DNA of 64,000 nt from Nocardia arthritidis (lineage in GTDB: Bacteria; Actinomycetota; Actinomycetes; Mycobacteriales; Mycobacteriaceae): the NCBI RefSeq assembly GCF_011801145.1, contig NZ_CP046172.1, positions 2,294,001 to 2,358,000 of the forward strand. The letters run 5' to 3'. Positions 38,028 to 41,866 of the stretch are shown here, piece after piece; the first letter of the stretch is position 1; each line of letters begins with the position of its first letter. The notes under the pieces were generated by a model that searched no databases, was not told where the DNA came from, and worked only from the letters and a program-made list of their open reading frames with translations. Position numbers and translations under genes: made by a program.

Positions 38028-38119
38028 GCCGTGCGACGCCCGCGACGGATTTCCAGGCTTCACGAATTCGCTTGTGCCGGACCCGCAGTGGTGTTCTCTG
38101 AAGAGAGCAAGGAGTGTCG

Positions 38120-39052
38120 ATGACGCGCGCTGTACGACAACCGATGGCGCTTGGTGACGAGGCCGCCCGGCGGCTCGCCAATACCACCAAGACCGTGCCG
38201 CAGATGGGCACGATCACCCCGCGCTGGCTGGTGCATCTGCTGAACTGGGTGCCGGTGGAGGCGGGCATCTATCGGGTGAACAAGGTGGTGCACCCGGAAT
38301 CGGTCGATATCCAATGCGACAACTTCGACGAGTCGCCGCTGCCGGATACATTTGTCGACTACGAAAAGCAGCCGGACGAATACCGGCTCAAGGCGGTGCA
38401 CACCATCCTCGATGTGCACACCCGTGTTTCAGACCTCTATTCCAGCCCGCACGATCAGATTGCCCAGCAATTGCGGTTGACGATTGAGGCAATCAAGGAG
38501 CATCAGGAAGGCGAGCTGATCAACAGCCCGGAGTACGGGCTGATCGCCAAAACCGCGAAAGACCAGCGGATTTCGACCATCGCGGGTCCGCCGACGCCGG
38601 ACGACCTGGACAATCTCATCGCCAAATGCTGGAAGGAGCCCGGCTTCTTCCTGACCCACCCGCAGGGCATCGCCGCGTTCGGCCGGGAATGCACCCGGCG
38701 CGGGGTGCCGCCGCCGACGGTCAGCATGTTCGGCTCGCAGTTCGTCACCTGGCGCGGCATTCCGATCGTCCCGTCGGACAAGGTGCCGGTGGAGAAGGGT
38801 AAGACGAAATTCCTGTTGATCCGGACCGGTGAGGCGCGCCAGGGCGTCGTCGGTCTGTACCAGCAGGGGCTGGCGGGTGAGCAGAGTCCGGGGCTTTCGG
38901 TGAAGTTCATGGGCATCGATCGCAGCGCGATCGCGTCCTACCTGGTCTCGCTGTACTGCTCGCTGGCCATCCTCACCCCCGATGCGACGGCGCTGCTGGA
39001 AGGCGCGGAGGTCGGCAAGTTCCATGACTACGCACCGCAGTACCGGAAGTGA
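38120..39052 (+). CDS. family 2A encapsulin nanocompartment shell protein
   Basis: 310 residues, right length for family 2A shells (about 305-310), which have an HK97 phage-capsid fold and assemble a T=1 protein cage. The sequence matches the family 2A/mycobacterial MMP-I type: TTKTVPQMGTITPRWLVHLL, VHPESVDIQCDNFDESPLPD, SDLYSSPHDQIAQQLRLTIE and the C-terminal YLVSLYCSLAILTPDATALL. No cyclic-nucleotide domain, so 2A rather than 2B. ATG 38120 has AAGGAG 5 nt upstream; the in-frame GTG 38114 would lie within that RBS. The cargo gene starts inside its 3' end. Confidence 0.92.
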   Translation: MTRAVRQPMALGDEAARRLANTTKTVPQMGTITPRWLVHLLNWVPVEAGIYRVNKVVHPESVDIQCDNFDESPLPDTFVDYEKQPDEYRLKAVHTILDVHTRVSDLYSSPHDQIAQQLRLTIEAIKEHQEGELINSPEYGLIAKTAKDQRISTIAGPPTPDDLDNLIAKCWKEPGFFLTHPQGIAAFGRECTRRGVPPPTVSMFGSQFVTWRGIPIVPSDKVPVEKGKTKFLLIRTGEARQGVVGLYQQGLAGEQSPGLSVKFMGIDRSAIASYLVSLYCSLAILTPDATALLEGAEVGKFHDYAPQYRK

Positions 39053-40892
39053 GCCGGACGGCGCCGTCCCCGGTGTGGACGGCGCCGTTCCCGGCGTCGA
39101 CGGTGTTGTGCCCCCGGCAGCCGACGTCGCGCTGCCGGGCCTCGATGGCGCGGTGCCGAGCTGGCTGCCCGACGAGGCGACGCTGAACCGGCTTGCCGGA
39201 GAGTTTTTTTCGGGGCTGCCCGGCGCCGCGCCGCAGCAATTCGGCACCGAGGCGGTGCCGGGCGCGGACCGGTTCGGACTTGTGCCGCAACACCTTTCGG
39301 CTCCGCCCGGACAACCTGCGCAGCCCGGCTTCGATTCCCGGCCGCCGACGCCCGGGCTCGCGGGCAGCGCGATCGAACCCGAGGTGCCCGAGGGTATCGC
39401 CGGTACCGACCCGTTCGGCATTGTGCCGCAAGATGTTCCGGAGTTCGCGCCGCGCGTGCCGACGCCCACCGGGTTCGATACCGCGCTGCCCGCCCTGCCG
39501 ATCCCGGCGATCGCCTCGGCGCCGCGGCACGCCCAGTCGGCCGGGTTCTATTTCCTCACCGAGCCGAATCCGTATCGTGCTGCGGCACCGGCGAATTCGG
39601 CGCCGGATTTCTATTTCCTCGACGGCGCCTCCGAGCGCCGCCGGGTGGCCTCGACCGATCCGCATCCGATCTTCGATGTGAACGCGGTGCGCCGGGATTT
39701 CCCGATCCTGCAGGAGCGGATCAACGGATATCCGCTGGCCTGGTTCGACAATGCCGCGACAACGCAGAAGCCACAGGCGGTGATCGACCGGCTGAGTTAC
39801 TTCTATCGGCACGAGAATTCGAATATCCACCGAGCCGCGCACGAGCTGGCGGCACGGTCCACCGACGCGTATGAGAACGCCCGCGCCATCATCGCCCGCT
39901 TCCTCGGTGCGGCGTCGGCCGAGCAGATCGTCTTCGTGCGCGGCGCGACCGAGGGCATCAACTTCGTCGCGCAAACATGGGGCCGCAAGCATATTCGTGA
40001 AGGCGACGAGATCCTCATCTCGCACCTGGAACATCACGCGAATATCGTGCCGTGGCAGATGCTCGCCGCCGAGACCGGTGCGCTGCTGAAGGTGATCCCG
40101 GTGGACGATACGGGGCAGCTGCGCATGGACGAGTACACCAGGCTGCTCTCCGACAAGACCAAACTCGTTGCGGTGGCCCATGTTTCGAATGCGCTCGGCA
40201 CCATAACGCCGGTCGAGGAGATCGTGGCGCAGGCCAAGCGGGCCGGTGCGGTGACGCTGATCGACGGTGCGCAATCCGTGCCGCACACCAGGATCGACGT
40301 CACCGGACTCGGCACCGATTTCTTCGTCTTCTCCGGGCACAAGCTGTACGGGCCGACCGGAATCGGCGCGGTGTACGGCGCGGCCGAGGTGCTGCGTGAT
40401 CTGCCGCCATGGCAGGGCGGCGGCAATATGATCACCGATGTCACGCTGGAACATTCGACCTATCAGCCGCCGCCCGCGCGTTTCGAGGCGGGCACCGGAA
40501 ATATCGCCGATGCGGTGGGTCTCGGCGCGGCCATCGAATACGTCGAGCGCATCGGCATCGAAAATATCGCGGCCTACGAGCATTTCCTGCTCGAGTACGC
40601 CACGGCGGGGTTGCGCGAGGTGCCGGGGCTGCGGCTGATCGGCACCGCCGAGGCGAAGGCGAGCGTGATGTCGTTCGTGCTCGACGGCTATCAACCCGAT
40701 CAGGTCGGCAGGGCGTTGAACGAGAAGGGCATCGCCGTGCGCGCCGGACACCATTGCGCCCAACCGATTCTGCGGCGCTTCGGGCTGGAGGCGACGGTCC
40801 GGCCGTCGCTGGCGTTCTATAACACCTGCGCGGAGGTGGATCGGCTGGTCGCCGCGCTGCACCAGCTGTCAGCCGACGCCGGAAACCGGTAG
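39024..40892 (+). CDS. encapsulin cargo cysteine desulfurase (SufS-type) with long N-terminal arm
   Basis: 622 residues. Residues 217-620 are a class II cysteine desulfurase: FDNAATTQKP, SHLEHHANIVPWQ, PLP Lys440 in FSGHKLYGPTGIG and the persulfide Cys578 in RAGHHCAQPIL. It removes sulfur from cysteine to give alanine and a persulfide. Residues 1-215 are Pro/Ala/Gly-rich and disordered-looking, with paired motifs: WLPDEATLNRLAGEFF (47-62), D-R-F-G-L-V-P-Q (82-89) and D-P-F-G-I-V-P-Q (129-136), and F-Y-F-L at 175 and 196. Such arms load the enzyme into family 2A shells. ATG 39024 overlaps the shell gene by 29 nt; no SUF genes are adjacent, so sulfur storage or mobilisation rather than routine Fe-S assembly is implied. 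Confidence 0.92.
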   Translation: MTTHRSTGSEPDGAVPGVDGAVPGVDGVVPPAADVALPGLDGAVPSWLPDEATLNRLAGEFFSGLPGAAPQQFGTEAVPGADRFGLVPQHLSAPPGQPAQPGFDSRPPTPGLAGSAIEPEVPEGIAGTDPFGIVPQDVPEFAPRVPTPTGFDTALPALPIPAIASAPRHAQSAGFYFLTEPNPYRAAAPANSAPDFYFLDGASERRRVASTDPHPIFDVNAVRRDFPILQERINGYPLAWFDNAATTQKPQAVIDRLSYFYRHENSNIHRAAHELAARSTDAYENARAIIARFLGAASAEQIVFVRGATEGINFVAQTWGRKHIREGDEILISHLEHHANIVPWQMLAAETGALLKVIPVDDTGQLRMDEYTRLLSDKTKLVAVAHVSNALGTITPVEEIVAQAKRAGAVTLIDGAQSVPHTRIDVTGLGTDFFVFSGHKLYGPTGIGAVYGAAEVLRDLPPWQGGGNMITDVTLEHSTYQPPPARFEAGTGNIADAVGLGAAIEYVERIGIENIAAYEHFLLEYATAGLREVPGLRLIGTAEAKASVMSFVLDGYQPDQVGRALNEKGIAVRAGHHCAQPILRRFGLEATVRPSLAFYNTCAEVDRLVAALHQLSADAGNR

Positions 40893-40942
40893 CGGTCGGT
40901 ACCGGCGACAGGACATTCGCGGTGGCGAGTAGAGTCCGCACT

Positions 40943-41866
40943 ATGTCGCGCGTCATTCGCATCGCCACCCGGTCCAGTCCGATGGCGCTGGCGCAGGCGG
41001 AGCAGGTGGCCGGGTTGCTGGCCGCGGCGGGCGCCGAGAGCGAACTGGTCAAGGTCACCACGGCGGGCGACCGCTGGATGGGCGACCTGTCGAAGCTCGG
41101 CGGGAAGGGCGCGTTCGTCAAGGAGATCGATCGCGCCCTGCTCGACCGCGAGGCCGATCTGGCGGTGCACTGCCTCAAGGACATTCCCGGCGATATCCCG
41201 GTGCCGGAGGGGCTCGCCTTCGCCGGATATCTGCCGCGCGACGATATCCACGACGCGGTGATCAGCCGGTCCGGCGCACCGCTCGCCGAGCTGCCCGCTG
41301 GCGCCGTCGTCGGGACGAGTTCGGTGCGCCGCACCGCGCAACTGCTGCTGCACTACCCGCACCTGACCGTGAAACCGTTGCGCGGCAACGTGAATACCCG
41401 GTTGGCCCGGCTGGAGGACGGGTACGTCGACGTGCTGATCGCGGCGGTGTCCGGATTGCACCGGGTGGGCCGGGCCGACAGCATCACCGAAACGCTGGAC
41501 CTGGAGACCATGTGCCCGCCCATCGGCGCGGGCATCATCGCATTGCATTGCCGGGCCGATGACACCGAAATGCTGGATCTGGCAAAGCGATTCGATCATC
41601 CGGAGACGAGGCGGCTGGCCGATGCGGAGCGGGCGATGCTGCATGCGCTGCAGGGGCACTGCAATTCGCCGATCGCCGGATTCGCGCGCACCGAGCCCAC
41701 CGGCCGACTGACCTTGTACGGCAAGGTTTTCAGCGCCGATGGCAGCCGCTGGCTGGATTCACACCAGTGGGGTGTGCCGGAGGAGCCGCAGGCGCTCGGC
41801 TTCTTCGTCGGCGCCGATCTGCTGCGCCAGGGCGCCCGTGCCATTATCGACGCGATACCGCACTGA
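40943..41866 (+). CDS. hemC: hydroxymethylbilane synthase (porphobilinogen deaminase)
   Basis: 307 residues (E. coli HemC 313). It polymerises four porphobilinogens into hydroxymethylbilane for haem, sirohaem and B12. Seen: N-terminal IRIATRSSPMALAQA, the catalytic Lys-Asp in VHCLKDIPGD (Asp84 equivalent) and cofactor Cys240 in LQGHCNSPIAG. TAGAGT sits 7 nt before ATG 40943, so it has its own leaderless promoter 50 nt after the desulfurase. It stands apart from hemA, hemD and hemB, so it may be a second copy; sirohaem (for sulfite reductase) would link it to sulfur metabolism, but that is inference. Confidence 0.9.
   Translation: MSRVIRIATRSSPMALAQAEQVAGLLAAAGAESELVKVTTAGDRWMGDLSKLGGKGAFVKEIDRALLDREADLAVHCLKDIPGDIPVPEGLAFAGYLPRDDIHDAVISRSGAPLAELPAGAVVGTSSVRRTAQLLLHYPHLTVKPLRGNVNTRLARLEDGYVDVLIAAVSGLHRVGRADSITETLDLETMCPPIGAGIIALHCRADDTEMLDLAKRFDHPETRRLADAERAMLHALQGHCNSPIAGFARTEPTGRLTLYGKVFSADGSRWLDSHQWGVPEEPQALGFFVGADLLRQGARAIIDAIPH

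Follow-up and report, generated by a model that had tools for sequence, protein, structure and literature searches.

A 64,000-nucleotide stretch of the Nocardia arthritidis genome (assembly GCF_011801145.1, contig NZ_CP046172.1, positions 2,294,001 to 2,358,000; hereafter the window, whose numbering is used unless otherwise noted) contains two overlapping forward-strand genes, one for a family 2A encapsulin shell protein and one for a cysteine desulfurase that is its putative cargo. A first-pass annotation had described this pair as a complete family 2A encapsulin, and the coordinates, reading frames and 29-nucleotide overlap that it gave were exact. The features of the pair are listed here.

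38120..39052, + strand: family 2A encapsulin shell protein, 310 amino acids (NF041162, PF19307, matches to solved structures)
39007..39012, + strand: GGAGGT within shell codons, a Shine-Dalgarno-like stretch 11 nucleotides before the cargo ATG
39024..39052, + strand: 29-nucleotide overlap of the C-terminal codons and stop of the shell with the cargo N-terminus, in different frames (coordinates and frames)
39024..40892, + strand: cargo cysteine desulfurase, 622 amino acids (NF041166; best match 8kg1)
39024..39674, + strand: cargo N-terminal arm, residues 1-217, predicted to be largely disordered, no cysteine (structure prediction, cysteine count)
39183..39212, + strand: loading motif 1, LNRLAGEFFS, residues 54-63, within predicted helix 51-63; resembles published LARLANEFFS
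39546..39557, + strand: loading motif 2, copy 1, FYFL, residues 175-178; resembles published AASPYYFLDG
39609..39620, + strand: loading motif 2, copy 2, FYFL, residues 196-199, in SAPDFYFLDG; resembles AASPYYFLDG
40341..40343, + strand: K440, the pyridoxal phosphate (PLP) lysine in SGHK; invariant in 18 aligned cargos
40755..40757, + strand: C578, the catalytic cysteine in AGHHCA; invariant in 18 aligned cargos

The hidden Markov model search that had been proposed as a check of the shell gave 514.5 bits against the NCBIfam 2A model (encap_f2a, NF041162; cut-off 380), with the whole profile, positions 1-295, covered. The NCBIfam 2B model was also passed (411.7 bits, cut-off 400), its best stretch being positions 211-449 of 450. 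Pfam found the SrpI-like domain alone in the window shell (PF19307, 331.9 bits) and no cNMP-binding domain, and the same test detected cNMP_binding in a 2B shell encoded elsewhere in this genome. The shell was therefore assigned to family 2A, and membership in 2B was rejected on the extent of the 2B stretch and the missing cNMP domain. Eight distinct sequences of solved structure matched the shell (best 8t6r, E 7e-152; SrpI 6x8m, E 1.1e-136), and the solved shells named Major membrane protein I (MMP-I) or SrpI covered nearly its full length, with E-values from 7e-152 to 1e-136. The MMP-I shells 8wol and 9ksl, which we take to be mycobacterial, had E-values near 1e-145. An in-frame GTG at 38114 provides an alternative upstream start for the shell gene.

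The cargo scored 845.9 bits against the 2A cargo model (NF041166, cut-off 800; the best stretch begins at residue 170) and 556 bits against the SufS family model (cut-off 475.1). Its best match by both sequence and fold was 8kg1, the cargo cysteine desulfurase of Mycobacterium smegmatis, which is 70% identical over the catalytic domain. The intact SufS-type residues named in the first-pass annotation, K440 and C578, stand at the positions given there, and C578 is the sole invariant cysteine across the 18 aligned cargos.

Comparison with the SrpI-CyD system of Synechococcus elongatus PCC 7942 (6x8m/6x8t; PMC8049743) showed a gapless shell alignment over window residues 8-305 and 60.3% identity between the cargos over the matched 78%, with both arm motifs present in both. 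The pore residues G194 and P196 and the cargo-contact residues F262 and Y273 of SrpI (PMC8049743) are identical in the window shell, as G195, P197, F263 and Y274, and are invariant in 20 aligned shells, while the SrpI pore residue R304 is replaced by A305. The gene arrangement differs: the S. elongatus genes lie 234 nucleotides apart, with cysK, epsC and a rhodanese gene beside them, whereas the window genes overlap and have none of these adjacent. In two mycobacterial relatives (L036 and L038) the shell tails are shorter than in the window and the cargo starts 13 bases before the shell stop rather than 28; L038 lacks the strict form of motif 1. The 2A locus of Nocardia panacis (L009) occupies the same genomic site on the upstream side, where it has seven flanking genes in common with the window, and its shell is the sister of the window shell (support 99/94).

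Loading of the S. elongatus cargo has been ascribed to two arm motifs, LARLANEFFS and AASPYYFLDG (PMC8049743). In the window cargo the arm, noted as long in the first-pass annotation, is 217 residues, and structure prediction from the 18 aligned cargos gave a predicted local distance difference test score (pLDDT) below 50 at residues 1-44 and 72-214, with a single predicted helix at 51-63, in which residues 51-60 average a pLDDT of 79. Motifs were counted in 44 arms, those of 43 relatives and the window; one locus missed by tblastn (L017) was added to this set by hand. Strict motif 1 was found in 37 of the 44 arms, FYF in 42 and at least two FYF in 21, against means of 0.06, 0.26 and 0.000 of 44 in shuffled arms. 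Arm length ranged from 55 to 336 residues, with both motifs mostly kept. The N. panacis cargo (L009, 8905-10269) has an arm of only 55 residues, compared with 217 in the window, and both motifs are present in each. A second short arm, in another genome of the genus (L088), carries FYFL and a variant of motif 1; it measures 61 residues when delimited so that the N. panacis arm counts 60. The two naturally short arms suggest that the smallest loading signal may be motif 1 with a single motif 2. In S. elongatus, green fluorescent protein was loaded by the first 100 arm residues, at lower efficiency, and was not loaded by the motif 2 stretch on its own (PMC8049743). A 21-nucleotide tandem repeat of 2.3 copies (39056-39103) lies early in the cargo arm and is a possible source of arm-length change.

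The cargo ATG arises from the shell codons for Phe-His-Asp, TTC CAT GAC. The histidine that supplies the start was CAT in 39 of 42 loci, window included (L017 was left out, as were L039 and L040, which have no FHD motif), while the other shell histidine codons were CAT in 62 of 247. The bias had a Fisher p of 2e-17, and of 2e-8 in a hand-thinned set of 22 loci in which relatedness was not fully removed. CAC was found in L024, L034 and L042, with another cargo start at +5 or -3. Starts were assigned by preferring a TTCC- or TACC-ATG between 45 nucleotides before and 7 nucleotides after the shell stop; L039, whose tblastn match ran beyond its stop, was left out of the start and arm counts. The cargo start preceded the end of the shell gene in 41 of 42 relatives, L024 being the exception, and the overlap was exactly 29 nucleotides in 23 of 42 (24 of 43 with L017). 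Because the start-supplying histidine is biased to CAT across loci, the overlapping start appears to be genuine and maintained by selection among these lineages.

The first-pass annotation had read the overlap as translational coupling at a fixed ratio, which is not supported in that form. The cargo has its own Shine-Dalgarno-like stretch, with a duplex energy of -10.8 (-9.5 for that of the shell), and SrpI particles loaded in vitro showed density for just one to two cargo copies (PMC8049743), so equal synthesis is not implied. The 11-nucleotide spacing from GGAGGT to ATG is longer than usual, and this spacing and the one to two cargo copies in SrpI would suit a low rather than an equal cargo ratio.

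The shell and cargo genes are the only unit conserved with the window. A search with the shell retrieved 44 relatives, and every one had a cargo directly downstream (the shell is cut in L042 and the cargo in L030). When 19 window proteins, shell and cargo among them, were used as queries (at least 45% identity over half the length), only these two recurred in the examined flanks of the 44 relatives, except in N. panacis. Within the genus, the cargo was over the cut-off in 27 of 150 genomes, this one included, and many Nocardia proteins among the best 120 homologues already carry the name 'family 2A encapsulin nanocompartment cargo protein cysteine desulfurase'. PMC8346489 mentions Nocardia in connection with peroxidase and Flp encapsulins and puts the number of actinobacterial 2A desulfurase systems at 193.

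Family models, solved structures, motifs, alignments and the cargo fold all agree with the first-pass assignment of a family 2A shell with a cysteine desulfurase cargo, and the pair very probably forms a complete encapsulin with the desulfurase packaged inside, assembly and loading being expected by homology. By analogy with SrpI, 60 copies of the shell protein would form a T=1 particle with a diameter of about 24.5 nm, into which the disordered arm would draw the desulfurase. Motif 1, as a short helix, and the two copies of motif 2 probably dock close to the three-fold axis on the inside of the shell. Cysteine would enter through the five-fold pores and the PLP enzyme inside would strip its sulfur. 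This sulfur most likely builds up in the lumen, as polysulfide or in elemental form, and would serve as a reserve or sink that stands apart from the SUF machinery.

We infer, with moderate confidence, that storage in the lumen is the fate of the sulfur. The arms are poor in cysteine: none was found in the 9,669 residues of the 44 arms, whereas the frequency in other called open reading frames (ORFs), calls that include wrong frames, predicts 76. Among the 120 homologues, some of which are the same proteins, 3 cysteines were found in 23,901 arm residues. In a control of 57 proline- and alanine-rich segments from other ORFs there were 21 cysteines in 2,850 residues, and the same filter applied to the cargo arms gave 155 segments with none; the control is weak, as one of the 57 segments is itself a cargo arm (L031) and several resemble exported proteins. 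An earlier control, with 29 cysteines in 2,040 residues, drew on ORF calls that included wrong frames. No invariant or nearly invariant cysteine was found in the 20 aligned shells. Since C578 is the only invariant cysteine of the cargo, the arms are cysteine-free and the shell has no conserved cysteine, there would be no other conserved protein thiol to carry the sulfur. A shell that acts like SufE, an idea raised in PMC8049743, would seem to need a shell thiol, and none is conserved in these alignments. A 2025 paper (PMC12407261) lists cysteine desulfurase cargo as taking part in the storage of sulfur, with reference to Benisch 2024 and Nichols 2021.

The genes for iron-sulfur cluster assembly lie elsewhere. 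SufB/D genes are found at 6.16 Mb of the genome, a single contig of 10,014,015 bases, with a separate SufS-like gene alongside, while the cargo is at 2.33 Mb; it is not encoded in a suf operon and so falls outside the definition of a SUF SufS. This separate locus with its own SufS-like gene does fit a cargo role apart from Fe-S assembly. The first-pass annotation had argued for such independence from the lack of cysE, rhodanese and suf genes beside the pair. That premise is true, as no match to rhodanese, SufB/D or cysE was found in the window, but the missing cysE says little, because its cut-off (210.65) was not reached anywhere in this genome, where the best of four weak matches scored 32 bits, or in any of 59 genomes of the genus, one of which has a match at 1e-30. 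In the control set 8 of 14 genomes reached this cut-off, and the search may therefore overlook a divergent enzyme. Across the genus, given this result, cysteine may come from another route or from a divergent enzyme. Benisch 2024 is said to report elemental sulfur storage.

Several observations weigh against these conclusions. Structure prediction for the shell was poor (mean pLDDT 48.5), and its putative HK97 fold is taken from sequence similarity. The arms of four terpene-synthase-like ORFs that adjoin 2B shells, one of them confirmed by Pfam, also had no cysteine in 300 residues, and the cysteine-free arm may not be special to a sulfur cargo and may instead reflect disordered composition. 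The cysK, epsC and rhodanese genes at the S. elongatus pair suggest assimilation or transfer rather than storage in that organism, and its knockouts had no growth defect (PMC8049743).

Sulfur transfer is also the basis of the main alternative, which is considered possible but unlikely here: the encapsulin would be a hub rather than a store, its shell limiting which acceptor encoded elsewhere (a rhodanese, SufU or a thio-cofactor enzyme) receives the sulfur, and the main effect of encapsulation would be to raise activity or guard cytosolic cysteine. Encapsulation raised kcat about sevenfold in S. elongatus (PMC8049743), all three plasmid loci inspected have serine acetyltransferase genes close to the pair and two of the three have rhodanese genes there, and this genome has 12 rhodanese-domain matches outside the window. 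On the other hand, the window itself has no match to the partner genes searched for, the shells have no conserved cysteine, and the 3.7 Å pores of SrpI (PMC8049743) would exclude protein acceptors. The flanks of other loci were scanned as 40 same-strand ORFs from 44 loci, with a greedy ORF caller that took at most one per side and missed some neighbours; hexapeptide repeats were found in 7 of 12 proteobacterial flanking ORFs and in none of 28 actinobacterial ones (23 loci), and one of the seven also has the serine acetyltransferase N-terminal domain.

That the locus is decayed or silent, with intact genes but no function in this lineage, is very unlikely. The patchy distribution in the genus would agree with it, as would the cut-down arm and long shell branch of the sister N. 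panacis and the absence from the window of a leader element common to much of the main Nocardia clade. However, both frames are intact, the overlapping start and both motifs are kept, as are the residues for catalysis, pore and docking, and the terminal branch of the window shell is very short (0.0032). The least probable alternative, an operon of shell, cargo and hemC that ties sulfur release to tetrapyrrole synthesis, was suggested by the next gene downstream:

40943-41866, + strand: hydroxymethylbilane synthase (hemC), second copy, 50 nucleotides after the cargo stop

The gap shrinks to 29 nucleotides if the in-frame GTG at 40922 is used, and no hairpin terminator was found between cargo and hemC in a scan that gave 3 terminator-like sites against 2.4 in shuffles. 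This hemC is 40% identical to the other copy in the genome, at 9.17 Mb. At an identity of at least 69% it was found in 51 of 149 other genomes of the genus, and in the 15 that have both this copy and an over-cut-off cargo the two were more than 200 kb apart on the same contig (4 genomes: G078, G085, G086, G155) or on different contigs (11). No hemC match was found in the examined flanks of the 44 relatives. A hemC-linked operon was rejected on these grounds, the copy in other genomes being distant from the cargo or on a different contig, and absent from the examined flanks of relatives.

Returning to storage in the lumen, a more specific form of it can be put forward tentatively, as rather improbable in its entirety: in a genus where no canonical cysE was detected, the pair would be a stand-alone store of sulfur that has no partner gene of its own. 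Its parts would avoid thiols other than the catalytic one and so keep polysulfide or elemental sulfur in the lumen, and a low cargo-to-shell ratio would be set by the dual coding that joins the cargo start to the tail of the shell, which lies near the five-fold vertex.

Upstream of the pair, on the opposite strand, are genes for an ArsR-type helix-turn-helix protein, an epimerase-like protein and an ABC-2 transporter. A promoter scan gave no promoter-like sites, against 0.5 in shuffles. In 14 of the 44 loci (L001, L002, L003, L004, L007, L008, L010, L013, L014, L015, L022, L023, L037 and L043) the strict pattern GGTA[AG]CGGTNN(A/T)TTTGC was found 35-36 nucleotides before the shell start, mostly preceded by a TAGCAT-like hexamer, and nowhere else in the 1.38 Mb of those loci (both strands together). 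With one mismatch allowed, 10 sites were found in six genomes, five shell-linked by coordinates and five elsewhere. The element was not found before the window shell. An Rfam search of two leaders was uninformative, with no match for the L008 copy.

The same genome also encodes a family 2B encapsulin (G000 3779442-3780848; L100:7443-8849). Its shell has the SrpI-like domain in common with the window shell and differs by its cNMP-binding domain and by the gene alongside, which encodes a terpene synthase whose N-terminal arm is of low complexity.

The pair is a known kind of nanocompartment in a bare two-gene form, not a new system, and adds one more Nocardia member to this family. As a minimal two-gene unit it provides a clean test case for sulfur handling with no neighbouring cysE or rhodanese to lean on. 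The natural series of arm lengths, from 217 residues here to 55 in the sister at the same genomic site, is useful for finding the smallest loading signal, and the conserved dual-coded start lends itself to measuring how it affects the ratio of cargo to shell.

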